64,000 nt of DNA from Prauserella isguenensis (lineage in GTDB: Bacteria > Actinomycetota > Actinomycetes > Mycobacteriales > Pseudonocardiaceae), in NCBI RefSeq assembly GCF_014191605.1, contig NZ_JACHWU010000002.1, forward strand, positions 434,001 through 498,000, given 5' to 3'. The position numbers were made by a program, and so were the translations under genes. Under the pieces are notes generated by a model that did not search any database, was not told the DNA's origin, and saw only the letters and a program-made list of their open reading frames with translations. Below, piece after piece: positions 40,643-52,105 of the stretch; position 1 is the stretch's first letter; every line of letters starts with the position of its first letter.

Positions 40643-40721
<79 letters not shown>

Positions 40722-40723
<2 letters not shown>

Positions 40724-40757
40724 GGGGCCGTTTACGCAGGTAGACGGCCCCTTTTTC
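40722..40757 (+). terminator. Intrinsic terminator after tRNA-Pro
   Basis: Arms AAGGGGCCGT (40722-40731) and ACGGCCCCTT (40744-40753) with a 12-base loop, then a run of T. It starts in the last two bases of the att core. Confidence 0.85.
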
Positions 40758-40778
40758 ATTGCTCTGAACGCAGCCGAC

Positions 40779-40818
40779 CCCGGGGCATGTCACATTCATG
40801 ACACACGCCCCGGGGTCG
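40779..40818. promoter_or_regulatory. Hairpin containing CACATTCATG (possible integrase arm site, left)
   Basis: Arms ACCCCGGGGC and GCCCCGGGGT surround GTCA-CATTCA-TGAC. The core CACATTCATG (40791-40800) recurs at 51137-51146 near attR and at 53451-53460. It lies between attL and the integrase stop and could also terminate the integrase transcript. Confidence 0.55.
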
Positions 40819-40822
40819 CCCC

Positions 40823-42031
40823 TCATGCCGCATCCAGCTCGTCCAACAGCTTCGTCCGGCGCAGGTCGAGCACGTCGGCGACCTCGTCCAGGCGGTCCGG
40901 GAACAGGTGCCCGTAGACGTTGAGAGTCATCGCGGCGTCGGTGTGTCCAAGCATCTGCTGCACCACCTTCACGTCGGCCCCGGCCGAGATGGCGAAGGAC
41001 GCCGCAGTGTGCCGCAGCTTGTGCGGGGTCAGGCCGTCGACGTCGAGCTTGGCGCCCGTCACTGCACGGTTGAACTCGCGAACTCGCCAGTTGTTGCTCC
41101 GAAGTGACTCACGCCGTGCCGTCGTGAACACCAGGTCGTCCGCTCCCCTGCCGCTGACCAGTGGCCGCAGCACCGGAACGAGCGAGGCCGGGAACGACAC
41201 CGTGCGCCGCTTCCCTGTCTTGGGCAAGCCCTCATGCTGAACGCCGTTCAGCTCGTAGAACGTCGAGACCACCCGGATACGGCGCTTGTCCAGGTCCACC
41301 TTGCCGACGCGGAGCGCAGCCGCCTCGCCCCACCGGATGCCCGTGTACGCAAGAAGCAGGATCAACGCCTTATTGACCGCCGCACAGGCGGTCGGCCGGT
41401 CGTATTTCGTCCTCAGCTCCCCCGCGGCCTGCGCCAGGCGTTCCACCTGCTCATAGGTCAGGTAGACGTGTTCCGCCTCCGGGCGCACCGGCAGCTTCAC
41501 GCCCCGTGCCGGGTTGACGGTGATCCGGGACGGGGTGCACCACTCGAGCACCATCGCGAGGACCCGGTACGCGTGGCGAACCTGTGACGGCCCGAGGCTG
41601 CTTCCGCCGTCGTTCGTCGACCGGAGCAGCTGCGCAACCCAGAGGTCGATGTCCTCGCGGGTGATCTTGTTCAGGGGAAGATCACCCCACCGCACGTTCA
41701 CGTGATTGTCGAGAAGCCCCCGGTACTTCCACCAAGTCGACTTCTTGAGGTCGTGCCGGGTTTCGAGCCATTTCTCCGCAGTATCCGCGAACGTGACCTT
41801 CGCCAGGGACGGATCCACATAGGAACCCGACGCTAACGAGTCCTCCAGACGTGCCCGGCGGTCGTCCGCCTTCACCTTGGTCGGTGCCGCCTCCGAGCGC
41901 AGCTTTCCGGCCGGGTCGTAGTAGCGCACCAGCCAACGCGCCGGCGGCTGGCGGCCGTTCTCCTTCGCCCGGCGTACGGCCGCCTTGTACTCGCTCGTCT
42001 TCTGCCGGTCGTACACCCACGCGCGTGCCAT
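40823..42031 (-). CDS. int: Tyrosine-recombinase integrase of the AICE
   Basis: A 402-residue site-specific recombinase that should integrate and excise the element at tRNA-Pro. It has an N-terminal AP2-like/SAM-like arm- and core-binding part (to about 190) and a C-terminal catalytic domain with Arg233 (AYTGIRWGEA), His337-x-x-Arg340 (PHKLRHTAA), LGH at about 362 and nucleophile Tyr373 (NVYGH). The ATG at 42031 overlaps the excisionase stop (ATGA). The gene ends next to attL, the usual AICE place. A broken relative lies just beyond attR. Confidence 0.95.
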   Translation of the reverse strand: MARAWVYDRQKTSEYKAAVRRAKENGRQPPARWLVRYYDPAGKLRSEAAPTKVKADDRRARLEDSLASGSYVDPSLAKVTFADTAEKWLETRHDLKKSTWWKYRGLLDNHVNVRWGDLPLNKITREDIDLWVAQLLRSTNDGGSSLGPSQVRHAYRVLAMVLEWCTPSRITVNPARGVKLPVRPEAEHVYLTYEQVERLAQAAGELRTKYDRPTACAAVNKALILLLAYTGIRWGEAAALRVGKVDLDKRRIRVVSTFYELNGVQHEGLPKTGKRRTVSFPASLVPVLRPLVSGRGADDLVFTTARRESLRSNNWRVREFNRAVTGAKLDVDGLTPHKLRHTAASFAISAGADVKVVQQMLGHTDAAMTLNVYGHLFPDRLDEVADVLDLRRTKLLDELDAA

Positions 42032-42207
42032 CAGATTGCCTCCTGGTTGTCGAACCAGGCGTCGACGTCGTCGGCGCGGTAGCGGACGTATTTGCCGACG
42101 CGGCGCCCTGTGGGGCCGTAGCCCTTGCTGCGCCATTGGTAGAGGGTGTTTTTGGGGATGCCGAGGTAGTCGGCGACGTCATTGATGCTGAGCAGCTTGT
42201 TGTTCAC
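42031..42207 (-). CDS. xis: Excisionase (MerR-type helix-turn-helix)
   Basis: A 58-residue DNA-binding protein: LLSINDVADYLGIPKNTLYQW followed by a GPTGRRVGKYVRYRADDVDAWF wing, the classical AICE/phage excisionase module. Such proteins bend DNA at att sites and steer the integrase towards excision. GTG at 42207 is the start. It overlaps the RepSA gene by 29 bases and the integrase start by four, so replication, excision and integration genes form one coupled unit. Confidence 0.93.
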   Translation of the reverse strand: MNNKLLSINDVADYLGIPKNTLYQWRSKGYGPTGRRVGKYVRYRADDVDAWFDNQEAI

Positions 42208-43540
42208 GGTGGTACTCCTCGCTGTACTTGGTTTTGCGGTCTTGGCGGATGCGTTCGGCGATGCCGGCGGCGAGTTCGCGTTCGGCGTCGTCGCGGTAGC
42301 CGGTGCCGTCGAAGCGCCAGTCGTTGACCACGGCGACGGTGTCGGCCCGCTCGGTGAGGCCGAGGCGTTCGAGGGTTTGGGCGTGGCGGTAGGCGCGCCG
42401 ATCGCCACGGATGACGCGGAAGGTGGTCGAGTAGCGCTGTGACTTGGTGAGGAAGTGGCCGCGGAAGCCGAGCATGTGTGCCCAGCGCCGCAGGTTCAGG
42501 TCCTCGTAGTCGGCCAGCCCGCCGAGGTCCCAGCAGGTTTGCACCATCCGCCGGTGATGCTCGGAGATCCGCAGATGGTCGATGTCGCGTTGCGAGCGGA
42601 TGGGCCGGTCGGCGGCCTCGCTCTTACCGGTGCCCTTGGTGGCGTACTTGGCGATATATCCGGCGATGCCCTCATCGGTGACACGGCCACGGTCGGTATC
42701 GCCGGAGCCGGATTCGATGTGGCGCACGTCGACCTGATCGCCCCACTCGAGCACCAGCGGCGCCCCATCCGGCCGGGCGATGCTCACCGACACCGCCGCG
42801 ACCGCGGCCAGCAGGGCGTCTTCCAGCAGGTCCGGGGTGGCCCAGGCCGGCGGAGGGTCGATCGCGCCCTCGGGGCCGTCGATGCGGACGACGGCGTGAA
42901 AGTGGATCAGGCCGCGCCGCTGGTACTCGGCGACCTTGCCGTAGGACAGGCGGGCGTGATCGCGCAGGTCACGGACCCGAATCCCGGCCCGTTTCGCGAT
43001 CTCGCGGCGCAGGCGCATGGTGAAGCGCTGCCACAGCACCCCCGCGTTGGCCTGCCAGAGCACCGCGCCGACGTAGTCGTACTCGTCGGGGTCGATCGCG
43101 GTTCCGGCCCGCGGGTCGGCGTCGGGGTGGACCTCGCCGCAGCCGCACGGGATGCGCTTGCCGGAGGCTGTGGTGCGGGCTTGATGCACCCGGCCGAACG
43201 ACGGAGCGGTCAAGGTGGCGAACACGCGGGCGCGGTCGGCGACGGTCTCGGGCACGCCCTTGGTGCCGCCGCAGAGTCCGGCGCGGACGAGGTGGAAGGC
43301 GTCGGCGGCGTAGCGGTCCGAGCAGGACGGGCACACCGAGGAACGCCGATTGCCGCACGGGGCGAAGATGTGCCCGCTGTGGTCGTGCAGCACGTACCCG
43401 GTGCGGGTGTCCTGGAGTTGGTGTGCTCCGTAGAGGCGGACCGGTTGGGCGCAGCCGTTGACCGCGCGCACCTTGGCCCGCCATTTCTCATAACCGGTCG
43501 AGCGCAGGCGGTGCGCCAGCCGGTCGTCCAGTGTCTCCAT
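42179..43540 (-). CDS. repSA: RepSA-type replication initiator
   Basis: A 453-residue rolling-circle replication protein as in pSAM2. An N-terminal cysteine region (FAPCGNRRSSVCPSCSDRYAADAFHLV) resembles a zinc knuckle. The catalytic part has RRGLIHFHAVVRID (a HUH-like motif, His-x-His). The C-terminal half includes GYIAKYATKGTGKSE, which carries a Tyr typical of nicking enzymes. It should nick the double-strand origin of the excised circle. ATG at 43540 with AAGGGGGC upstream is preferred to GTG at 43570. Confidence 0.92.
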   Translation of the reverse strand: METLDDRLAHRLRSTGYEKWRAKVRAVNGCAQPVRLYGAHQLQDTRTGYVLHDHSGHIFAPCGNRRSSVCPSCSDRYAADAFHLVRAGLCGGTKGVPETVADRARVFATLTAPSFGRVHQARTTASGKRIPCGCGEVHPDADPRAGTAIDPDEYDYVGAVLWQANAGVLWQRFTMRLRREIAKRAGIRVRDLRDHARLSYGKVAEYQRRGLIHFHAVVRIDGPEGAIDPPPAWATPDLLEDALLAAVAAVSVSIARPDGAPLVLEWGDQVDVRHIESGSGDTDRGRVTDEGIAGYIAKYATKGTGKSEAADRPIRSQRDIDHLRISEHHRRMVQTCWDLGGLADYEDLNLRRWAHMLGFRGHFLTKSQRYSTTFRVIRGDRRAYRHAQTLERLGLTERADTVAVVNDWRFDGTGYRDDAERELAAGIAERIRQDRKTKYSEEYHREQQAAQHQ

Positions 43541-43638
43541 CGAGCAGAGGCCCCCTTTTCCGTTGTGCACACGAAAAAGGCGGGGTCACAGCCACCGTGT
43601 GGCCATGCCCCGCCCCCGTGTGCGGTGTTGCGTGTCGG

Positions 43639-44367
43639 TCAGCTCAGGACCGGGTGTCCGTTGCGGGCGGTGAGTTGGTCGGCGATACGCGCGGCCATCT
43701 CGCCCGGCACCCGCATGTGCGTCTGGATCTCCTCGGTGGTGAGCTCGCGGCCCTCAGCGCGGGCGGTGTCGACCAGCCCGTCCAGGCGGCTCGCCAGTTC
43801 CGGCGGCAGCTTCACCCGCGGCACCGACGACGGCCGGCCCGGCTGCGGAGCAGGTGCGGGATCAGCGGCACCTGTCGGTTCCGAGTCGGCCGAGGCTGGC
43901 GCCGGGTCCGGAGGCACGGGTGCCGCGGGCGCCGGTTCGAGTTCCGGACTTGTCTCCGGTTCCGAGGCGGGTGCGGCCCGCATGAGCAGTTTCACCACCA
44001 CGAGGAACCCGAGGGCGGGCATGGCGGCCACGATCCACCCGGCCACGCTCGGTTCGGCCAGGGCGACCTGTGCGGCCATCTGGATGCCGAAGGCGGCCAC
44101 CAGCACCACCATCGGGAAGGTGACCTTGCGGGTCTGTCCACGGGCGTGATCGCGCTGGATCTCGAACCCGGCGACCACGGCCATGCCCTCGATCACCACC
44201 GCCGTCGCCCAGGCCAACCATCCGGTTTGCCCGTGGTGGACGGCCCACTCGTGGGTATGGGTGAACCCGGCCGCCGCACCGATGCCGCCGAGGACGCTGG
44301 CCACGGTGATGCGGACGAGGTTCACCAGCCGCCGATGTTCCGCGGCTCCGGGACCTGGCGGGCTCAT
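43639..44367 (-). CDS. DUF2637 membrane protein (SpdB-like spread protein)
   Basis: A 242-residue protein. Four hydrophobic segments lie in residues 10-125, followed by a Pro/Ala/Glu-rich linker and a C-terminal helical region (LPPELASRLDGLVDTARAEGREL, THMRVPGEMAARIADQL) resembling a small winged helix. DUF2637/SpdB proteins assist intramycelial plasmid spread with TraB. The ATG start overlaps the upstream stop (ATGA). It is co-directional with the transfer genes. Confidence 0.87.
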   Translation of the reverse strand: MSPPGPGAAEHRRLVNLVRITVASVLGGIGAAAGFTHTHEWAVHHGQTGWLAWATAVVIEGMAVVAGFEIQRDHARGQTRKVTFPMVVLVAAFGIQMAAQVALAEPSVAGWIVAAMPALGFLVVVKLLMRAAPASEPETSPELEPAPAAPVPPDPAPASADSEPTGAADPAPAPQPGRPSSVPRVKLPPELASRLDGLVDTARAEGRELTTEEIQTHMRVPGEMAARIADQLTARNGHPVLS

Positions 44368-44621
44368 GTGTTCCGCCAGTTCGGATCGGTGGCCTGGTCC
44401 TCCCACATCTGGACCGCGCGGCGTTTGTGTTCGGCCTCGGCTTCGAGCACGGCCGCCGTACGGCGGTTCCACTCAGCCATGTCGATGCATGCCCTGCGGT
44501 GCGTGAAATCGTCGCTGCGTCCGTAGTAGTAGGCGTGCAGTATGTCCGGGTACTCGTTGATCACGCCGTCGAGCTGGTCTCCGTGCTCGAACGGCCACGC
44601 GGGGTGCAGTCCTACTATCAT
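44364..44621 (-). CDS. Small AICE protein of unknown function
   Basis: An 85-residue acidic/polar protein with no recognised domain. It is rich in Trp, Tyr and His (PAWPFEHGDQLD, HAYYYGRSDDF), and the C-terminal helix is charged (AAVLEAEAEHKRRAVQMWE). ATGA overlaps on both sides place it in the transfer operon. Proteins like it are found only within such elements. Confidence 0.75.
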   Translation of the reverse strand: MIVGLHPAWPFEHGDQLDGVINEYPDILHAYYYGRSDDFTHRRACIDMAEWNRRTAAVLEAEAEHKRRAVQMWEDQATDPNWRNT

Positions 44622-45049
44622 CGGCCATCACCCACCGGGCCGAGGGCGGACCATTTCTGCAGCATCCGCCGCCCGCTGATGGTCAGCCGCAGTGGCAGTA
44701 CCGGGCGGTTCCCGCGGCCCGTGCGGCCGGTGAAGGTGTCCCGGGCGGGGCAGCGCTGGACGTACTTCTGCGTGATCAGGTGGTGCACCAGATCCCCATC
44801 GAGGGCGGTCTTCATGTGCCCTTCCGGGTCGATGACCACGACCGTGTCGGTGTCGTCGAGCAGTCCGAACTGGCCGAGTTGCACTTCCGCCAGCACGTCC
44901 TTGGCCACCGATGCGGCAGCGGAGGGCGTCTTACGCGTCCGGCCCCGCGTGGGCGGGCACTGGCGCGAGGACTGTGTCACCGGCGCCAGGCCACCACCGG
45001 TGGAGTTGCCGAACAGGTCGAGTTGGTCGCGTGCCGATTTGTGTGTCAT
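44618..45049 (-). CDS. AICE protein of unknown function
   Basis: A 143-residue protein. The N-terminal 55 residues are polar; the middle holds VLAEVQLGQFGLLDDTDTVVVIDPEGH, and the C-terminal part (LVHHLITQKYVQRCPA, LRLTISGRRMLQKWSAL) looks like a degenerate winged helix. A DNA-related role is conceivable but not shown. It is coupled to both neighbours by ATGA overlaps. ATG at 45049 is chosen because it overlaps the upstream stop. Confidence 0.72.
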   Translation of the reverse strand: MTHKSARDQLDLFGNSTGGGLAPVTQSSRQCPPTRGRTRKTPSAAASVAKDVLAEVQLGQFGLLDDTDTVVVIDPEGHMKTALDGDLVHHLITQKYVQRCPARDTFTGRTGRGNRPVLPLRLTISGRRMLQKWSALGPVGDGR

Positions 45050-45267
45050 CGGACCTTGTCCTTTCCGATCTTGCCGAACTCGCGCTCGCGCAGCTCTGCC
45101 ACGCCGAGCCACAGGCCGAGTCCGACGCAGCCGAAGACCACGGCCGCGCTCCAGAACAGTGGTGAAAATCCCTGCGCGGTGTGAATCATCCAGAGCAGCA
45201 GCAGGGCGGGGACGGCGTACTTGCCCACCAGCCACGCCCGCCACACGAAAAATCCCCAACGCCACAT
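45046..45267 (-). CDS. Small AICE membrane protein
   Basis: A 73-residue protein with two hydrophobic segments (about residues 14-29 and 34-52) and a charged C-terminus (ELREREFGKIGKDKVR). Its position directly downstream of the translocase gene fits the short Spd/membrane proteins that accompany TraB in AICEs. ATG at 45267 follows a GGAGGAACG-like site. Confidence 0.78.
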   Translation of the reverse strand: MWRWGFFVWRAWLVGKYAVPALLLLWMIHTAQGFSPLFWSAAVVFGCVGLGLWLGVAELREREFGKIGKDKVR

Positions 45268-45301
45268 GGCGCGTTCCTCCGTTCGTTGTTGGTGAGCTGT
45301 G

Positions 45302-46669
45302 TCAGGCGACAGCGGTGAGGTGCTGGCCGGTGCCCCATCCGGCGCGGACGAACGAGACCAGTTCGTCGATCTCGTGATCGGCCACATAGGCGGCCCGCAC
45401 CCGCATGGGCACCCGTGTGCGTTGGCGGATGACGTAGCCGATGCCCGCGGTCTCTGGGGCGTTCGGGATCTCGTCGGCCAGCGCCCCGCGCAGGCGGGCG
45501 TTCTCGCCGAGGACCATGTCCACCTGCGCGGCCGCGGTGACCCGCAGGCAGATGCGGATGGTGAACAGCTCGCGGACCGGGACGGTGTCCTTGGTCGGTT
45601 CCTGCACCAGCGCGGTCACGCTGTGCCCGGTCGCCCGGCCCTGCGAAGTGACGATCGCGAGCTTCTTGCGCAGATTCCGCGCAACGGTGCCGTCGCCGTA
45701 GGCGAGCAGCGAGCCGATCTCGTCGATGATCAGCACGTTCAACGGCGTGACCCGCGACAGCTCCAGCTTGCGGGTCCCCTGTTCGGAGAACTCGCGCTGC
45801 ACCCGCTGCAGGTCGTCCACGAACTCGTCCACCAGCTCGGAGCACTCGCCTTCGTCGGTGGCGTAACGGTGCGCGATCCCTTCGAGCTTGGCGAACTCCA
45901 TCTGCTTCGGATCGCAGATCCACAGCCGCACCAGCCCGTCCCGGATCAACGGAGCCAGGGCGCGCAGCTCCGACATGGGGATCGAGTTCTTACCCGCGCC
46001 GGTGGCACCGGCGATGAAGGTGTGCTGGCCCAGCACCGGGAGGCGCCAGTCCGCGCCGAACTCGGTCTCGCCCACGTACACGTTCTTCAGGTCGACCGCG
46101 TCGGGCTCGTCGGGCATGTCCGGGGCGTCGATGGTCTCGGTGAACGGCTCGTCCCGTTCGATCACCAACCCGAGCACACCGGGCTTGACCTTTTCCACCG
46201 CCACCCGCCGGGCTCGGAGCGCTTCGGTGAGTTCGTCGAGGTTGGCCTCGAACTTGCGGGCCGACATCCCCTGCGGGATGCGCACCCACACCGTGTCCAC
46301 CGTGGGCGAGTAGGAGCGGGTCTTGATGATCCGCGGGAACTGCTCCTCGCCCGACTTGCGATGCACCACATACAGATCACAAGCCCGCAGGGCGTTGTGC
46401 CAGCGCGGCCCGAGATAGGCCGACCAGCGGCGCCGCCAGGCCCGCATCCGCGGTGCAGCCCAGTGGTCGAACGTGGCCGGATGCGCCCGATACCAGCCAC
46501 ACAGCCCCGCCGCGGTGCCGCCAGCGATCATGCCGGTGGTGGTCCATCCCAGTTGCGTGCCCGCGGCCACCGTGCTCGCCGGGGCGAGGACCGAGCCGGG
46601 GTGCCGGGCGGTCCAGAGCGCGGCCTTCATCTCGCGGCCGGTGCGACGCTTCGAATCCGGGGTCTTCAT
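45302..46669 (-). CDS. traB: FtsK/SpoIIIE-type DNA translocase TraB
   Basis: A 455-residue ATPase that should pump double-stranded element DNA between cells. The N-terminus has one or two hydrophobic stretches (residues 18-58). The RecA-like motor has a P-loop-like GATGAGKNS (about 224-232) and Walker B LNVLIIDEIGSLLA (about 304). The usual Ser/Thr after the P-loop Lys is Asn. The C-terminal region has TRVPMRVRAAYV then an acidic helix, where TraB proteins recognise the clt repeats. It is shorter than chromosomal FtsK, as usual for AICEs. An inverted repeat CCTTCCG/CGGAAGG lies at 46685-46700 just upstream. Confidence 0.92.
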   Translation of the reverse strand: MKTPDSKRRTGREMKAALWTARHPGSVLAPASTVAAGTQLGWTTTGMIAGGTAAGLCGWYRAHPATFDHWAAPRMRAWRRRWSAYLGPRWHNALRACDLYVVHRKSGEEQFPRIIKTRSYSPTVDTVWVRIPQGMSARKFEANLDELTEALRARRVAVEKVKPGVLGLVIERDEPFTETIDAPDMPDEPDAVDLKNVYVGETEFGADWRLPVLGQHTFIAGATGAGKNSIPMSELRALAPLIRDGLVRLWICDPKQMEFAKLEGIAHRYATDEGECSELVDEFVDDLQRVQREFSEQGTRKLELSRVTPLNVLIIDEIGSLLAYGDGTVARNLRKKLAIVTSQGRATGHSVTALVQEPTKDTVPVRELFTIRICLRVTAAAQVDMVLGENARLRGALADEIPNAPETAGIGYVIRQRTRVPMRVRAAYVADHEIDELVSFVRAGWGTGQHLTAVA

Positions 46670-46801
46670 GGTGTTGTTCCGTCCCTTCCGAGCGGAAGGA
46701 CCGGCCCCACCCCGGGTGCCGCCATGTTCGGCCGGACCCAGAGGGAGCCGGTCCAGCCAAACTGTCGATGTCGTTGTGTCTTGTCGTGGTCGTTGCCGGG
46801 A

Positions 46802-46984
46802 TTACTTGTCGATCGCTGACCGGGCGTCGATCAGCTCCGTGGTCAGCTCAGCCATCGCGCGGGCGGCCTTGTTGTGGTGATTGCGGAACCCGTGCTCGTT
46901 GATCGGCATCCCCCGAGTGGCCCGCCGCAACTGCCGCAGGGCGGTGTCCACGTCGTCGATGACCCGGTCCAGTTGATGAGACAT
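46802..46984 (-). CDS. Small helical AICE protein
   Basis: A 60-residue protein predicted to be mostly helical (LDRVIDDVDTALRQLRRATRG, ARAMAELTTELIDARSAID). No family is recognised. It lies seven bases after the next small gene and is likely co-transcribed with it. Confidence 0.68.
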   Translation of the reverse strand: MSHQLDRVIDDVDTALRQLRRATRGMPINEHGFRNHHNKAARAMAELTTELIDARSAIDK

Positions 46985-46991
46985 GTGCTGC

Positions 46992-47255
46992 TCACACCTT
47001 CCACGGCCGAGACATCAACTCGGCCTCGAACTTCTTGGCCGTCATCCGCATCTGGTCCAACTCGCCGAACGCCTTGGCCCGCAGCCCCTTCAACTCGCCC
47101 TGCGTCGGCACGGTGAACCCGGACTCGGTCGTGCCCTTGCCCACCCGGGCGATCAACTTGTCCAGCTCGTCGAACTGCTCGGCCACCAAGTCCATCGCCG
47201 ACACGAACTGCGCATACCGCTGCACAGCCAGCTTGTTCACACCAGGAATCTCCAC
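46992..47255 (-). CDS. Small helical AICE protein
   Basis: An 87-residue protein with a long helix (YAQFVSAMDLVAEQFDELDKLIARV) and a second helical part (GELDQMRMTAKKFEAELM), probably a small coiled coil. GTG at 47255 lies one base after the preceding stop, with AAGGGGA before it. Function unknown; found in the transfer-operon leader region. Confidence 0.72.
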   Translation of the reverse strand: MEIPGVNKLAVQRYAQFVSAMDLVAEQFDELDKLIARVGKGTTESGFTVPTQGELKGLRAKAFGELDQMRMTAKKFEAELMSRPWKV

Positions 47256-47256
47256 C

Positions 47257-47424
47257 TCAGGTCCCCTTCCGGATCACGTCCTGGGCGTGCCGCAGGCCCT
47301 CGCAGAACCCGGCCTGCCACGCCCAGTCACTCGCCGGTTCGGCCAACGCGCTCTGCCGGTCGCGCTCCAACCGTGACGCCCACCGGCGCACCATCCGCGC
47401 CATCTGAATCGGCCTCGAACTCAT
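47257..47424 (-). CDS. 55-residue AICE protein
   Basis: A short gene (ATG at 47424, TGA at 47257). The protein begins MSSRPIQMARMVRRWASRLE and ends with WAWQAGFCEGLRHAQDVIRK. The Trp-rich amphipathic helices and the one-base spacing to the next gene support real coding. No family assigned. Confidence 0.6.
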   Translation of the reverse strand: MSSRPIQMARMVRRWASRLERDRQSALAEPASDWAWQAGFCEGLRHAQDVIRKGT

Positions 47425-47471
47425 CACCCATACCGCCCTTTCTTCTCTTTCTTGCCGGACTTTTCACCAGG

Positions 47472-47561
47472 TCACATCGGCCACTGCGCGCCGCACACCG
47501 TGCACGTCGCCACACCCGCCGGAGACAGCCAGAAATGTGCACTGCACACGTGCTTACCCAT
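47472..47561 (-). CDS. 29-residue mini zinc-finger protein
   Basis: A very short gene (ATG at 47561, TGA at 47472) with a near-perfect ribosome binding site GGAGGTGA before it. The protein has CSAH near residue 6 and CTVC near residue 21 (C-x2-H-x11-C-x2-C), enough to bind one zinc ion. It ends in AQWPM. It is the first gene of the long minus-strand transfer run and may be a DNA- or protein-binding adaptor. Function unknown. Confidence 0.68.
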   Translation of the reverse strand: MGKHVCSAHFWLSPAGVATCTVCGAQWPM

Positions 47562-47885
47562 GTGCTTTCACCTCCCCGGCCCGTTCGGGTCGAAGGTGCA
47601 CACACCGTTTCCACCCGCCATGTCCCATCACACCCTTCACATTGTTTCCGCGTGGTAGAACCCCAAGACCCCCGGAGAAAAACGCCGGGAGTCAAGGCGC
47701 GCCACCACGAATCAGGCGCGTTTTTTGGCATGGATCGGCCCACTCTGGAATTCTCAAGGAACAATTAAGCGCGCTGGCCCGACTCGAAAACGGGCCGCCA
47801 GCCGCAATTCTGGGCAGCGCTCCAAGGTGGTGATTCGCGAGCCGGGGGAACTCGCGGCCGGACACCTACCGGCCGGTGTGCCGGA
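47562..47885. other. Regulatory gap in the AICE
   Basis: A 324-bp gap upstream of the small-protein run. It holds an AT-rich island at 47745-47765, a TTGACT box reading on the minus strand at 47690-47695, and several hairpins, including a 10-bp stem at about 47858-47884 just after the SCO3933-like gene. It is the likely promoter region of the transfer run. Confidence 0.5.
47698..47726 (+). terminator. Hairpin with T-tract on the plus strand
   Basis: CGCGCC (47698-47703) pairs with GGCGCG (47715-47720), followed by six T. It points on the plus strand although both flanking genes are on the minus strand, so it may block antisense transcription. Confidence 0.5.
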
Positions 47886-48269
47886 CTACGCGGCGGACGA
47901 CAGGCCACCCTGCCCGGCAGGCTTCATCCCAGCCGCCTTGAACGACAGACCCGAGTTCACATTCCCCTGCTGGTCCTTCATCGCCCACGGCGAGCCGGTC
48001 GCGTCGATCAGCTCCACATACATGCCCTCGTCGAACTCGTCCCCCGGGTCCGTCGCCAGCGTGACCTTGATTTCCTCACCCTTACCCACGCGGCCCCCGT
48101 CCGGCCGAGGCTTGCGCTTCGCGAACAGCGACACCACGAACTGCTGCGAGCCGTCCTCGTAGTTCGTCACCGGAACGACGTTGCCGTTCTCGTCCTCGCG
48201 CGTCTTCATGACCGGCGCCTCCGACACCATCAGCTTGAACCCGCCCAGGTCCACCGGGATGTTCCTCAT
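47886..48269 (-). CDS. SCO3933-family regulatory protein of the AICE
   Basis: A 127-residue protein. The opening MRNIPVDLGGFKLMVSEAPV and the beta-rich middle (QQFVVSLFAKRKP, VTLATDPGDEFDEGMYVELID) match the SCO3933-like proteins found in AICEs and actinomycete plasmids. The family is believed to be regulatory or DNA-associated; its mechanism is unknown. ATG at 48269 follows GGAGGAC. It is divergent from the XRE regulator, and the three palindromes between them suggest shared control. Confidence 0.85.
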   Translation of the reverse strand: MRNIPVDLGGFKLMVSEAPVMKTREDENGNVVPVTNYEDGSQQFVVSLFAKRKPRPDGGRVGKGEEIKVTLATDPGDEFDEGMYVELIDATGSPWAMKDQQGNVNSGLSFKAAGMKPAGQGGLSSAA

Positions 48270-48282
48270 GTCGTCCTCCAAG

Positions 48283-48294
48283 TGCAAATTTGCA
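48283..48294. promoter_or_regulatory. Operator palindrome copy 1
   Basis: TGCAAATTTGCA, perfect 12-bp palindrome, 13 bp upstream of the SCO3933-like start. Confidence 0.85.
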
Positions 48295-48346
48295 TGTTCT
48301 ACAGACAACGTTAGGCAAGGTAGGCAGCCGATGGCAAGTCTGTTCG

Positions 48347-48358
48347 TGCAAATTTGCA
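48347..48358. promoter_or_regulatory. Operator palindrome copy 2
   Basis: TGCAAATTTGCA again; here the symmetry extends to 14 bp (GTGCAAATTTGCAC, 48346-48359). Confidence 0.85.
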
Positions 48359-48389
48359 CTCATCACCCGTTCGGCCCAATGACGGCCAG

Positions 48390-48401
48390 TGCAAATTTGC
48401 A
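48390..48401. promoter_or_regulatory. Operator palindrome copy 3
   Basis: TGCAAATTTGCA, located where the -35 element of the XRE promoter would be (TACCCT at 48413-48418 is a good -10). Confidence 0.85.
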
Positions 48402-48425
48402 GGTCACGGGTTTACCCTGGTTCGC

Positions 48426-49253
48426 ATGACTGCCGTACGCGAGGAGCGCATCGCGCGGGAACTCCGCAGGCTGCGCGGGAAGTACACGAGCGCCGACGTC
48501 CAACGAGCGCTCGGCATCACCCCGTCGAAGCTCTCCCGCATCGAGAGCTGCAAGGTTCGGCCCAGTTCTCAGGACGTGAGGCGGCTTGCCACCTTCTACG
48601 GGGCCGACGCCGACGCCGTCGAACGTCTCGCCGAAGCCGCCGAGGACCTCAAGCGCCCCGTCTGGTGGACGGAGTTCATCGGCCCAGACTGGAGCGAAGC
48701 GCTCGCGTATCACTTGGACCTCGAAAGCGAGGCCACGCGGATCGACTCTTGGACCATCGATCTTGTGCCTGGCTTGCTGCAGACCCGGGACTACTCCGCT
48801 GCCCTCATGACCTCGCGCGTGGACGTGCCATCTGAACAGCTGGAGCGTCGACTAGCGCTGCGGGAGCGTCGCCAAGAACGCGTGCGGAACGGGACCCTGG
48901 AGCTGTGGGCGATCCTCAGTGAGGCTGTCCTCTGCGGGCAGATCGGCGGCCCCGACGTCCTCCGAGGTCAGCTTGAGTACCTAGCCGAGCCACCGGCAAA
49001 TGTCACGGTACAGATTCTGCCGTTCACAGCGGGTGCACATAGCGGCTTGGGGACCAGCTTTCACCTGCTCGCATTCGCTGACTGGCCCACCGTTGGATAT
49101 CAAGACACCATCCAGCAGGGCCTTTACTATGACGACCCGGACGTCGTGAACGGCCTCACAAGGACGATTGACGACGTCCGCGCCACGGCATTGAGCCCGA
49201 GTGCATCACGCGAGATGCTCGCTCGGCGAGCGACAGAACTGAAAGGTGAGTGA
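48426..49253 (+). CDS. XRE-family regulator with DUF5753 domain
   Basis: A 275-residue regulator. A helix-turn-helix lies at residues 20-60 (YTSADVQRALGITPSKLSRIESCKVRPSSQ), then the DUF5753 sensor domain (about 95-270; LVPGLLQTRDYSAALM, LERRLALRERRQERV, VQILPFTAGAHSGLG). The pattern is typical of the WhiJ-like proteins that pair with DUF397 partners in actinobacteria. The mRNA is probably leaderless: a -10-like TACCCT ends only eight bases before the ATG and no ribosome binding site is seen. It is the likely repressor acting at TGCAAATTTGCA. Confidence 0.88.
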   Translation: MTAVREERIARELRRLRGKYTSADVQRALGITPSKLSRIESCKVRPSSQDVRRLATFYGADADAVERLAEAAEDLKRPVWWTEFIGPDWSEALAYHLDLESEATRIDSWTIDLVPGLLQTRDYSAALMTSRVDVPSEQLERRLALRERRQERVRNGTLELWAILSEAVLCGQIGGPDVLRGQLEYLAEPPANVTVQILPFTAGAHSGLGTSFHLLAFADWPTVGYQDTIQQGLYYDDPDVVNGLTRTIDDVRATALSPSASREMLARRATELKGE

Positions 49254-49255
49254 CC

Positions 49256-49453
49256 ATGCTCGATCACCAATGGAAGAAGAGTTCGTACTCCGACGGCGGC
49301 GGCAACTGCCTCGAAGCACGGCTCACCGAGACCGACGGCGTCGAAGTCCGCAACAGCAAGGCCCCGGAGCTGGGCTCGGTCAAGTTCACAGCAAGTGAGT
49401 GGGATGCCTTCATTGCCGGAGCCAAGGATGGCCAGTTCGAGATCCCGAGGTAG
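49256..49453 (+). CDS. DUF397 protein paired with the XRE regulator
   Basis: A 65-residue protein showing the full DUF397 signature: WKKSSYSDGGGNCLEARLTE, VRNSKAPELGSVKFTASEWDAF and a C-terminal helix. DUF397 proteins are encoded next to XRE/DUF5753 regulators and are thought to modulate them. ATG at 49256 with AGGTGAG five bases upstream is chosen; GTG at 49250 overlaps the regulator stop. A strong terminator follows. Confidence 0.9.
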   Translation: MLDHQWKKSSYSDGGGNCLEARLTETDGVEVRNSKAPELGSVKFTASEWDAFIAGAKDGQFEIPR

Positions 49454-49473
49454 ACCCGACCCGCTTCGTTCAA

Positions 49474-49507
49474 AGAGCCCCGAGCCGCGAGGATCGGGGC
49501 TCTTTTT
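49474..49507 (+). terminator. Intrinsic terminator after DUF397 gene
   Basis: Perfect 10-bp arms AGAGCCCCGA and TCGGGGCTCT with a 10-base loop, then TTTT. Confidence 0.9.
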
Positions 49508-49609
49508 CGTCCCGTTCGCGCCCCTTCATCGGCACCGCATCAGACGCACTCTGCACAGGCCCGGACCACTCCCCCCGAGGGAGCGCCACAGCCCACCGTA
49601 GAGGCTGTG

Positions 49610-49790
49610 TTCAGACTTTCTCTTCTTGTTCAAGGCGGCGCCTGACGGCGCCGCGCGGCCTCGCCGCCCCTGCTCCGACCGAGCCTGCGCGCGGGGCATG
49701 CGGCCTGGCGGCCGGTCCCCGCGCGCATCGGCCGGAGCCGAGGCAGGCCGCACACACCATCAGCGCACGTTGAAGAAGAAAGAACATGTC
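49610..49790. repeat. GC-rich imperfect palindrome
   Basis: The centre has perfect 11-bp arms TGCGCGCGGGG (49686-49696) and CCCCGCGCGCA (49717-49727). Weaker pairing continues outwards (GGCCT/AGGCC, GCTCCG/CGGAGC) to pyrimidine-rich and purine-rich ends (CTTTCTCTTCTTGTTCAA at 49616 against TTGAAGAAGAAAGAAC at 49769). No gene is seen. Confidence 0.6.
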
Positions 49791-49856
49791 CTCGCCGGAC
49801 GGGCAGGCTCCGGGATGACCGGGGAAACGTAGCCGCGGTGCGGTTGGCAGGGTGGG

Positions 49857-50010
49857 CGCTTGGTGGTCATCCCGTCGCCTGACCAGATGGCTATCACGCC
49901 GCGCAGCGGCCGCAAGCTTGGCAAGCTCAGCCGGCGGATGGCGAGCGAAGGTTGCGGCCCCAACACGGCGTGATCGAGACGCCATCAGGCGACGGGATGA
50001 CCACCAAGCG
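49857..50010. repeat. 154-bp nested long palindrome
   Basis: Perfect 26-bp arms at 49857-49882 and 49985-50010 are followed inwards by a 10x10 mismatch, a 9-bp stem (ATCACGCCG at 49893-49901 with 49966-49974), a 6x6 mismatch and an 8-bp stem (GGCCGCAA at 49908-49915 with 49952-49959). A small hairpin sits in the loop. The symmetry of stems and bulges looks like a selected structure, such as an origin, a clt-like site, a structured RNA or a small non-autonomous transposon. Confidence 0.85.
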
Positions 50011-50045
50011 TTCTCATACCGACGGGTATCGGCCAGTATGTAGTG

Positions 50046-50915
50046 ATGCCCAAGACCAAACTCCCCGACCACCTATCCCCAGCTCAGGTAATCGATCTCC
50101 AAGACGAACTGTTGTCAAACGCCGACCGTCTCATGAATTCTTCCCTGCTACTCCTCAACAAAGGAGACTTCGGACTGGCAAGATCTGTCGCAATACTAGG
50201 AATGGAGGAATCCGGTAAAGCGATCGCCATCCACCAACGAAGAGTTTCAATTGCATTTAGCCCCGAGGGTGACCCATTCGTAAACAAACGCCTCCAAGAC
50301 ATCTGGTCTAGCCACCCTGAAAAACTTCGTCTTGTTCATGACTTCCTAGCCGAAGAGCCGTACTGGTACGGGGTTACACCTCCAGACCATGAGCTGAACG
50401 AAGAGTACCTGGGCGAGATCGACCAATGGTCCACGAAGTGCAACATGCTAAAACAACGCGGCTTCTACGTAGACTTCAACGAACAGCAGGGACTCCTCAG
50501 TCCACGTGACGTCGACCAGGAAATGCTTCGCGATGTAATATCGCATGTCCATCAGATCGGCTGGCAACTCCGTTTAGGTGAGGACATAGAAGCAAGGAAA
50601 CAAGAGCGGAAGTCCCGCGATGTACCGCCGGCCTCCGAATCCCAGATAAAGCACGTGGAGAAATTTCTCAAAACCAACGGCCGAGAGTCCCAGGTCGAGA
50701 AAATAATCGGACAACTGAGGTCCGGACGGCCGGGTATAAAGCTGAATAACGATGCTTACCGTCCCCATGTTCGAACGCCAGAAACACACCCCTTAAAGCA
50801 CCTTGGGAAGCCTGGCTACGAGGCTTACACGCGAGAGCTTTTGATGCTTGCGGAGGACGCAGGAATGGACGAAGAAGATCTGGTCGACCTCGTTAGGCCA
50901 CAACACGAGGGGTAA
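50046..50915 (+). CDS. AbiV-like HEPN abortive-infection protein
   Basis: A 289-residue protein. Residues 18-75 match the AbiV pattern: LLSNADRLMNSSLLLLNKGDFGLARS then VAILGMEESGKAIAIHQRR, the small-residue/Glu-Glu-x-Gly-Lys helix typical of the family. The rest is charged and helical. AbiV blocks phage protein synthesis in Lactococcus; HEPN proteins are often RNases. The base composition is clearly lower in GC than all neighbours, with codons ending in A/T, a sign of recent transfer. It lies alone at the right end of the AICE, next to large palindromes. Phage defence is inferred from the family; GTG at 50043 is an alternative start. Confidence 0.72.
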   Translation: MPKTKLPDHLSPAQVIDLQDELLSNADRLMNSSLLLLNKGDFGLARSVAILGMEESGKAIAIHQRRVSIAFSPEGDPFVNKRLQDIWSSHPEKLRLVHDFLAEEPYWYGVTPPDHELNEEYLGEIDQWSTKCNMLKQRGFYVDFNEQQGLLSPRDVDQEMLRDVISHVHQIGWQLRLGEDIEARKQERKSRDVPPASESQIKHVEKFLKTNGRESQVEKIIGQLRSGRPGIKLNNDAYRPHVRTPETHPLKHLGKPGYEAYTRELLMLAEDAGMDEEDLVDLVRPQHEG

Positions 50916-51255
50916 TCGGGATAAGCGTGGCGCCAACTAGTGCACTTCCTTCCAAGCTTTACCCTCCACGAACAGCAGCAAATGGCAATATAGAGCCACC
51001 CGCGATGCGCGTTCACTTTCGTAATCGACGCAGGTCACACCCCGTTTTTTGACAGAATCACCACAGACGTCGGCAACCGTTTTCGAATAGGACGGGTATC
51101 AGGTCGACCCTCCGGCCTCCCGGTGCGGTCGCATGCCACATTCATGTCACATGCGGTCAGCAGACGGCCGCAATCGACGACATACGACCGCAGCGAAACC
51201 CCTGGTCAGTTGACGCATACTCGCAGCAGGCGCAGGCCAGCTCAGCCACGAACAA
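50916..51255. other. Right-end non-coding region of the AICE
   Basis: A 340-bp gap of mixed composition. It contains the decamer GACGGGTATC at 51091-51100, which also occurs just before the AbiV-like gene (50021-50030), and the CACATTCATG motif at 51137-51146. No gene is seen. Confidence 0.5.
51130..51152. promoter_or_regulatory. CACATTCATG motif near attR (possible integrase arm site, right)
   Basis: CACATTCATG at 51137-51146 flanked by CGCATG/CATGCG arms. The same core lies just inside attL. In the excised circle the two would flank attP, as arm-type sites do. Confidence 0.55.
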
Positions 51256-51299
51256 GGTCAAGGGGTCGCAGGTTCAAATCCTGTCAGCCCGACCGGCAA
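51256..51299 (+). other. attR: right 44-bp att repeat
   Basis: Exact copy of 40680-40723, a 3' tRNA-Pro fragment that cannot fold into a tRNA. It may also have served as the left end of the older element beyond it. Confidence 0.95.
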
Positions 51300-51415: not shown

Positions 51416-51720
51416 TCAGCCAACGCCTGCATCGCCTTCCCGCGATGGATGTCGAGCCACCTCGTCGAGGCGGTCCGGGAAGAGGTGCCCGTAGACGTTC
51501 AGCGTCATGGACGCACCAGCATGGCCGAGCATCTGCTGAACGACCTTCACGTCCGCCCCGCATTGATCGCCAGCGAGGCCGCAGTGTGACGGAGCTTGTG
51601 CGGCGTCACGCCATCGACTTTCAGCACGCCACGTGCCGGATTCGCCGGAATACGCGACGGGGTGCACCACTCCAGCACGATCGCGAGCACACGGGCAGAA
51701 CGGCGCAGGCCCGAGCCCGG
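51416..51720 (-). pseudogene. Degenerate AICE integrase
   Basis: Two frames carry pieces closely matching the intact integrase. One reads RVLAIVLEWCTPSRI, NPARGV, VDGVTPHKLRHTAASLAINAG; the other continues ADVKVVQQMLGHAGASMTLN and VYGHLFPDRLDEVA. The middle of the catalytic domain (including the active Arg) is deleted, and a frameshift lies between the two pieces near 51555. The N-terminal part is missing. It is the relic of an earlier element in the same tRNA gene. Confidence 0.9.
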
Positions 51721-52105
51721 AAGAATCGACCGGACGCTCGGCCTGTGCCGTTCTGCTGCCAGCCGAAGGACAACCGGCACGCTTTCGACGCATCCGCCCG
51801 ACCGTCTTCCAGCAGCACCTGCGCCGCCGCCGGTAGCGTGTCGTGTCTCAGGTGATGGTTGACGTCTTGCTCTCACCTGATGCTTGACGTAGAGGGCTAG
51901 AAGATGAGACGAGCAGCAAACCGAACACACAGGTGTAGTCGCTGGCCAGCTCGCCTCCTCTCAGGATCGTTAAGCGGGTACAGTTCGCCTGCGATCTGTA
52001 CCCGGCCGATGAGTTTCGCATGCTCGGCGGGCCTACATGGGTACGGACGCGATCTTTTGCGGGTCGGTGCCGATGCGATTGCTTCGGATGAGAGGCCGCT
52101 CCGTT
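51721..52105. other. Gap with inverted repeats before the hydrolase gene
   Basis: A 385-bp region in the relic element. It has TCAGGTGA/TCACCTGA arms at 51848-51855 and 51873-51880, each followed by a TTGACGT sequence, which resembles an insertion-sequence end or regulatory site. A second inverted repeat lies at 51975-52004. No gene is recognised. Confidence 0.5.
51975..52004. promoter_or_regulatory. Inverted repeat upstream of the hydrolase gene
   Basis: Perfect 9-bp arms CGGGTACAG and CTGTACCCG with a 12-base centre, about 100 bp before the hydrolase start; a candidate operator. Confidence 0.6.

Follow-up and report, generated by a model that had tools for sequence, protein, structure and literature searches.

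What is the role of a long palindrome that sits near the right end of a mobile element, in a stretch with no gene of its own? The locus in question belongs to a window of 64,000 nucleotides (the whole stretch of DNA analysed) from Prauserella isguenensis. Here a 154-bp palindrome at 49857-50010 lies near the right end of an AICE that is integrated at a tRNA-Pro gene and encodes an integrase, RepSA and an FtsK-type Tra. An earlier note, made from the letters of the window, had proposed several roles for it: a replication origin, a transfer (clt) site, a structured RNA, a substrate for the neighbouring HEPN protein or a MITE. Among these candidates the replication origin is the best supported by the present analysis, and the palindrome is probably the structural half of a rolling-circle origin.

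The palindrome and its host AICE

The AICE uses a plus-strand tRNA-Pro(ggg) gene (40643-40718) as its integration target, and a perfect 39-bp copy of the 3' end of this gene at 51256-51294, on the same strand, forms the distal att site. The minus strand encodes the tyrosine integrase (40823-42136; Pfam Phage_integrase, 1.3e-28), the rolling-circle initiator RepSA (42179-43570; Pfam RepSA, 1.8e-151) and the FtsK/SpoIIIE-type transfer protein (45302-46669; Pfam FtsK_SpoIIIE, 2.7e-12). RepSA carries an HFH motif at residue 223 and the residues Y305-IAK-Y309, a two-tyrosine arrangement. The plus strand encodes an HTH_31/DUF5753 regulator (48354-49253) and its DUF397 partner (49253-49453), followed by a hairpin with a T run that resembles an intrinsic terminator (49472-49505), and finally a HEPN_AbiV cargo gene (50043-50915; Pfam 1.5e-27) in the slot between the putative origin and att. 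This cargo gene has no match in PADLOC at E 0.01. The gene-free gap that had been reported around the palindrome is present, but it runs from the DUF397 stop (49453) to the AbiV start (50043 or 50046) and measures about 590 bp, slightly more than the 538 bp claimed.

Three further features are recorded here. A palindrome, TGCAAATTTGCA, occurs in three direct copies at 48282-48401, in the interval that separates a minus-strand gene from the HTH_31/DUF5753 regulator, and is operator-like. A second conserved non-coding stretch, GGCATGGATCGGCCCACTCTGGAATTCTCAA..., at about 47727-47765 is common to 6-11 AICE loci and may be a promoter or another cis site. Immediately past the distal att, at 51455-51729, there are integrase-like fragments, suggesting the remains of a second tandem island at the same tRNA.

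The arms of the 154-bp palindrome (49857-49922 and 49945-50010) are 66 nt each, 79% paired and separated by a 22-nt spacer. Read by eye, they agree with the first description: perfect 26-bp outer arms, internal loops of 10x10 and 6x6, and stems of 9 bp and 8 bp. The fold is extreme both as DNA (z -10.8) and as RNA (-106.9 kcal/mol, z -10.7), with 0 of 200 shuffles equalling it in either case. The palindrome has no match at E 0.01 in plasmid or phage records, and its arm pattern was found 0 times in viral contigs. Its chromosomal relatives are many: at E 0.001 there are matches, some of them short, in 57 of 297 Pseudonocardiaceae genomes, in a search that scored two candidates per genome only.

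These relatives allow the suggestion of a maintained fold to be judged by covariation, and compensatory change is strong. Of the three outcomes that the earlier note named as refuting its reading (no compensatory changes, no transcript, no other copies), the first and the last are contradicted. The set used, A2, holds 30 palindromes of the 37 tried; the other seven (L045, L245, L259, L268, L276, L277 and L279) were dropped when the arm pattern was not found. In A2 95.9% of cells pair and 21 of 34 pairs are changed on both sides. Cells changed on both sides number 119, compared with 34.8 in shuffles, and covariation is 0.339 as against 0.115 in shuffles (0/500 as good) and at most 0.084 in slid controls, with the qualification that the tested structure came from the A2 alignment itself, which favours that structure. 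The palindrome is therefore a non-coding, long and imperfect hairpin whose structure is kept over its sequence, as is looked for in a single-strand origin (sso). Which strand folds is less clear from the mismatches. They are wobble-compatible on the minus strand at 13 positions and on the plus strand at 4 (p 0.049, a weak strand test), with 15 against 7 in an overlapping set, and in copies that carry another repeat the plus-strand wobble cells are the commoner (41 vs 9). Fold energies give a mixed answer on the strand of folding.

A 405-bp element and the link of its core to RepSA

The palindrome forms the right half of a larger element, real and conserved, of about 405 bp (49606-50010, plus strand; boundaries from BLAST across related loci). 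Conservation extends left to 49606 and ends sharply at 50010, an extent absent from the earlier note, and the flanks outside both ends differ among copies. The left half carries a core motif, TTTCTCTTCTTGTTCAAGGCGGC (49617-49639, plus strand), the putative double-strand origin (dso). It is overlapped by a short G+C hairpin, GGCGGCGCC-TGAC-GGCGCCGC (49634-49654), which adjoins the inferred nick, and then comes a long second hairpin at 49655-49753 (ends approximate, from the fold of the window copy and the alignment) with a sequence that varies among copies. A conserved linker, ATGTCCTCGCCGGACGGGCAGGCTCCGGGATGACCGGGGA (49786-49826, plus strand), leads to the palindrome, the putative single-strand (lagging-strand) origin; strand does not apply to the two hairpins or the palindrome. 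RNAalifold on the 27 full-length copies in the alignment gives 74 pairs, 19 of them changed on both sides.

The element is made of two separable parts, namely module A (49606-49786), which includes the core and both hairpins, and module B (linker and palindrome). Some AICEs have module A followed by different sequence, and many dispersed copies have module B without module A. When 40 regions were fetched around copies and joined with the window, module B was present at the required length in 39 of the 41 (all but L232 and L239). RepSA was found in 20 of these 39, FtsK-type Tra accompanied it in 18, and in all 20 RepSA lies left of the element on the opposite strand. Pairs of loci often have the left flank in common and not the right. 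Between the close AICEs L001 and L010 identity is 95% across 580 bp of the left flank and 79% across the palindrome query, and thus the exchange of cargo seems to break within the element or at its end. In L226, L229 and L230 module B directly adjoins an integrase gene or its remnant, with no good core, and neither RepSA nor Tra was found in these regions.

The core follows the pattern TTTCYNTWC-N4-TCAAG-N-CGSC, where the four bases ahead of TCAAG vary. On the RepSA-sense strand the invariant TCAAG becomes CTTGA, which matches the nick pentamer of phiX174/pC194-type origins over these five bases only. A RepSA-baited search of 60 Pseudonocardiaceae genomes (49 positive, 117 rows) supplied 40 RepSA loci. 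They were drawn from the 55 rows with the best scores, of which a further 7 were already in the set and 8 were left out. To the 40 were added 12 of the loci found in other families and 8 Pseudonocardiaceae loci that tblastn with the window's RepSA had missed, which were taken as a second RepSA subfamily. The element model matches 24/24 loci with a RepSA of at least 49% identity to that of the window, always on the plus strand and right of RepSA; 10 of these matches reach the model end and the rest are partial, several covering only the core of about 50 nt. The palindrome model alone matches 9 of the same 24. Among 16 loci with RepSA at most 43% identical the element model matches two, L245 (weakly) and L256. 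The latter is the one exception to the fixed orientation, as its element lies at the opposite side of RepSA and on the other strand.

The core reaches further than the element as a whole. Allowing up to 6 edits, TTTCTTTACTTGTTCAAGGCGGCCCC is present on the plus strand at the right of 8/16 distant Pseudonocardiaceae loci and 4/12 other-family loci; the remaining 8 of each lack it at this threshold, as do all 8 loci of the second subfamily (0/8). On the minus strand there is one weak match across all loci. The core is also the most widely common non-coding stretch found, occurring in up to 20 of 24 other loci.

An exact pattern, TTTCYNTWCNNNNTCAAGNCGSC, was composed after the 6-edit search and run genome-wide. 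It gave 36 matches in 23 of the first 60 genomes, which overlap the loci from which it was composed, and 28 of the 36 lie within 20 kb of RepSA (median 8.2 kb), always on the same side of it and on the strand opposite to it (28/28). A second set consisted of 60 further Pseudonocardiaceae genomes with no locus used for the pattern and no palindrome match listed earlier. It gave 26 matches in 17 genomes, of which 17 lie within 20 kb of RepSA (median 7.8 kb), again without exception on that side and on the opposite strand (17/17). The reversed control gave 0 matches in both sets. In a phylum sample of 149 genomes there were three matches in two genomes, both RepSA-positive; the pattern was absent from 10/12 RepSA-positive genomes of this sample and found in 0/137 RepSA-negative ones. 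The core is hence linked to the initiator gene in a fixed orientation, as is looked for in a dso.

Strong hairpins beside the core are a broader feature of these islands. In 36 AICEs the best hairpin score is 16.7 right of the core, compared with 8.8 on its left (Wilcoxon p 9e-7) and 9.9 in random windows (p 4e-8). The right side exceeds the left in 31/36, and it exceeds its own 95th percentile in 25/36, no such hairpin being found right of the core in the other 11. Seven of the 25 represent mainly the module-A hairpin adjoining the core and 18 lie farther out, half of these (L244, L246, L249, L254, L257, L261, L265, L278 and L287) without a palindrome match. By eye, L261, L264 and L271 have another hairpin in common, GCCTGTGGGCAG...CTGCCCACAGGC, right of the core and past module A. 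Extra nick pentamers in the hairpin region were considered and dropped: CCTTGA/TCAAGG occurs right of the core in 17/36 windows against 28% of control windows, which is too weak.

The origin reading and its rivals

By its association with RepSA, the core is well supported as a putative rolling-circle dso. In phiX174 the cut falls at CTTG^A. Taking the invariant CTTGA together with the HFH and YIAKY motifs of RepSA, we infer a nick at CTTG^A, between 49631 and 49630 on the minus strand, which is the RepSA-sense strand. In pC194 the DSO is TATTAT^CAAGATAAGAAAGA and the nick falls in the complement, i.e., CTTG^AT, with the same CAAG/CTTG context (PMC5037232). As described in PMC3218068, RepSA of the pSAM2 group is related to phiX174 initiators and binds and nicks a dso, AICE transfer requires replication, and pSAM2 has a pC194-like nick site, a statement attributed there to te Poele et al.

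The palindrome would then take the part of the sso, which is its best reading and a probable one. Leading-strand synthesis would displace the nicked strand. Located on it immediately 5' of the nick, the palindrome and the module-A hairpin would come off last and fold while single-stranded. The folded palindrome could serve as the lagging-strand origin where the host primes the complement, and the cargo between origin and att would be exchanged. We infer the strand, the Rep binding and the priming in this scheme. An sso is usually near the dso (PMC5037232), the ssoA of about 160 nt is a large structure with a fixed orientation (PMC5703833), and such origins are judged on structure as well as sequence (PMC4595007; PMC5703833). 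What an origin role leaves unexplained are the module-B palindromes without core, which are dispersed or lie beside integrase genes or their remnants.

These dispersed relatives are best seen in Amycolatopsis, where linker and palindrome occur in tens of copies, many of them 3' of genes (by eye). They often have another long inverted repeat ahead of them, and mosaic segments. The 176 distinct copies divide into 39 that match module A, 79 that match the other repeat and 58 that match neither. Counting only copies with coordinates, a core lies within 1 kb upstream in 29/36 copies with module A, 0/79 with the other repeat and 2/56 with neither; since the core is itself a piece of module A, this difference is in part built in. 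Gap sizes were computed by hand for two sites. At L069, where the gap in G116 spans about 620-690 bp, five of ten relatives have 4-111 bp in its place and the remaining five 259-911 bp. At L075 the gap of about 770-790 bp is matched by 86-121 bp in three of ten relatives; the element is present in one, and the others are intermediate or ambiguous. Such short spacers at orthologous sites indicate that dispersed copies come and go. In G116 (L062-L080) variable numbers of repeats of about 45 bp precede the dispersed copies, which resemble mosaics of alternative segments, as though gene conversion had shaped them. A role in chromosome polarity was discarded, the G116 copies lying on both strands (by eye).

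The MITE proposal fits these dispersed Amycolatopsis relatives, which are multicopy and can show short spacers at orthologous sites, and does not fit the window copy. That copy is single in its own genome, and the left and right ends of the element have no terminal repeat in common (by eye), so that neither the terminal inverted repeats nor the multicopy state of a MITE is found, and in AICEs the element keeps a fixed place and orientation. Copies without module A also lack the core (0/79 and 2/56, a comparison partly built in, as stated above). We regard an origin of the window copy by MITE insertion as very improbable. A role of the palindrome as substrate of the HEPN/AbiV protein is likewise unlikely, because the element recurs next to different cargo.

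A structured RNA or 3'-end element transcribed from the plus strand (terminator, stability element or regulatory RNA) would account for the strong fold with its covariation and for the many copies placed 3' of genes, often between convergent genes (simple gene caller, by eye). Yet the genes upstream differ among copies, the fixed orientation of the core relative to RepSA would be unexpected in a 3'-UTR element, and GU cells on the plus strand number only 5 against 22 AC cells, a deficit not seen in copies with the other repeat. No Rfam covariance model except tRNA reaches its gathering score (six sub-threshold matches have E 0.56-3.8). The terminator role in particular is weakened by the separate terminator-like hairpin ahead of the element. 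We consider the RNA reading unlikely. Only a little less doubtful is the proposal that the element is the clt, the cis-acting locus bound by FtsK-type Tra for double-stranded transfer. A clt is defined as a cluster of short direct repeats. No exact 8-mer cluster lies within the element; across 40719-51256 no 8-mer has four copies in 300 bp (exact repeats only), and the only three-copy 8-mer clusters are those at 48282-48401, outside it. In its favour, the element follows both the Tra and the Rep clade. TraB binds clt, and chromosomes contain clt-like sites (PMC3218068), a situation with which dispersed copies would agree. Against this, L213, L237, L260 and L266 carry RepSA and the element with no Tra by tblastn, and the conserved fold would suit single-strand use more than binding by FtsK. 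We retain the rolling-circle origin, with the core as putative dso and the palindrome as putative sso, as the probable reading.

Mini-islands and comparison with known systems

The element and its core also occur on small islands. Nineteen of the element-baited regions lack RepSA and Tra by tblastn with the proteins of the window, and in six the element lies between a tRNA gene and its 3'-end copy: L201 (2.0 kb), L202 (4.4 kb), L204 (1.9 kb), L211 (4.6 kb), L233 (3.5 kb) and L238 (2.7 kb). The att copies are perfect over 37-39 bp in five of the six, and L204 has a 27-bp copy at 96%; in a further region, L222, a 33-bp repeat at 94% is doubtful. An intact core is present in L201, L202, L211 and L233, and in L204 and L238 it differs by one base. 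Gene calls in L201, a tRNA-Pro island, give a DUF6414 gene only, apart from a short frame across the element. A region with RepSA, Tra and element (L220 and L221) is likewise present in the genomes that harbour L201 and L204. L202, L211 and L238 retain shortened integrase genes, and thus these may be deletion remnants.

The core as bait gave a similar picture. All 17 matches away from RepSA (8/36 and 9/26 in the two genome sets) were examined, and seven have a tRNA gene on one side and the copy of its 3' end on the other: the site of L233, and L300 (8.0 kb), L301 (6.6 kb), L306 (8.9 kb), L307 (2.4 kb), L308 (4.3 kb) and L314 (1.8 kb). None of these seven has a tblastn match to the integrase, RepSA or Tra of the window, though other types of these proteins may be present. 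The att copy is 31 bp at 97% in L308 and 45 bp, perfect, in L314. Several of the other ten matches are near contig ends. The cargo of L306, the largest core-only island, comprises two genes, of 788 aa and 256 aa.

It is possible, though we hold it only tentatively, that such islands are origin-only satellites (about 1.8-8.9 kb, att-bounded, retaining the core and a slot for cargo) that full AICEs excise, replicate and move in trans, and that a core-free palindrome turned MITE-like in Amycolatopsis. Our confidence in this scenario rose slightly because of the second set of 60 genomes with its nine core matches away from RepSA. In the literature searched we found no description of the element or of such mini-islands, and we do not claim its absence from print. 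If the mini-islands move in trans, they would be the AICE counterpart of phage satellites. The palindrome common to dispersed repeats would be a case of part of a mobile-element origin spreading as a repeat, or the reverse.

For RepSA AICEs in general, the core provides a searchable and testable candidate origin, through which AICEs and candidate islands derived from them can be located with no need of a gene as bait. It also makes the specificity of RepSA testable, two RepSA subfamilies being predicted to use different dso binding regions (PMC3218068), and the element marks the plug-in site of accessory genes such as AbiV.

How does this system compare with those already known? It shares RepSA, FtsK-type Tra, a tyrosine integrase and an att site at a tRNA 3' end with the RepSA AICEs of pSAM2 type, whereas the 405-bp form with the palindrome occurs in part of the family only. 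Prokaryotic MITEs resemble the dispersed relatives, which are small, multicopy, intergenic and present or absent at orthologous sites, but which have no terminal inverted repeats by inspection and no recognised autonomous partner. In the DSO-gene-SSO cassettes of qacC, cargo is likewise exchanged at a boundary made by an origin element, but between dso and sso; in the window the cargo lies between the origin palindrome and att (PMC5037232). The ssoA and ssoU of Firmicute rolling-circle plasmids and the sso1 of ICEBs1 are also non-coding, with a large fold and a fixed orientation, and often near the dso (PMC5703833; PMC5037232; PMC4595007). The element of the window differs from them in being GC-rich and actinobacterial, and the likeness is one of structure and placement, with a putative function in common.
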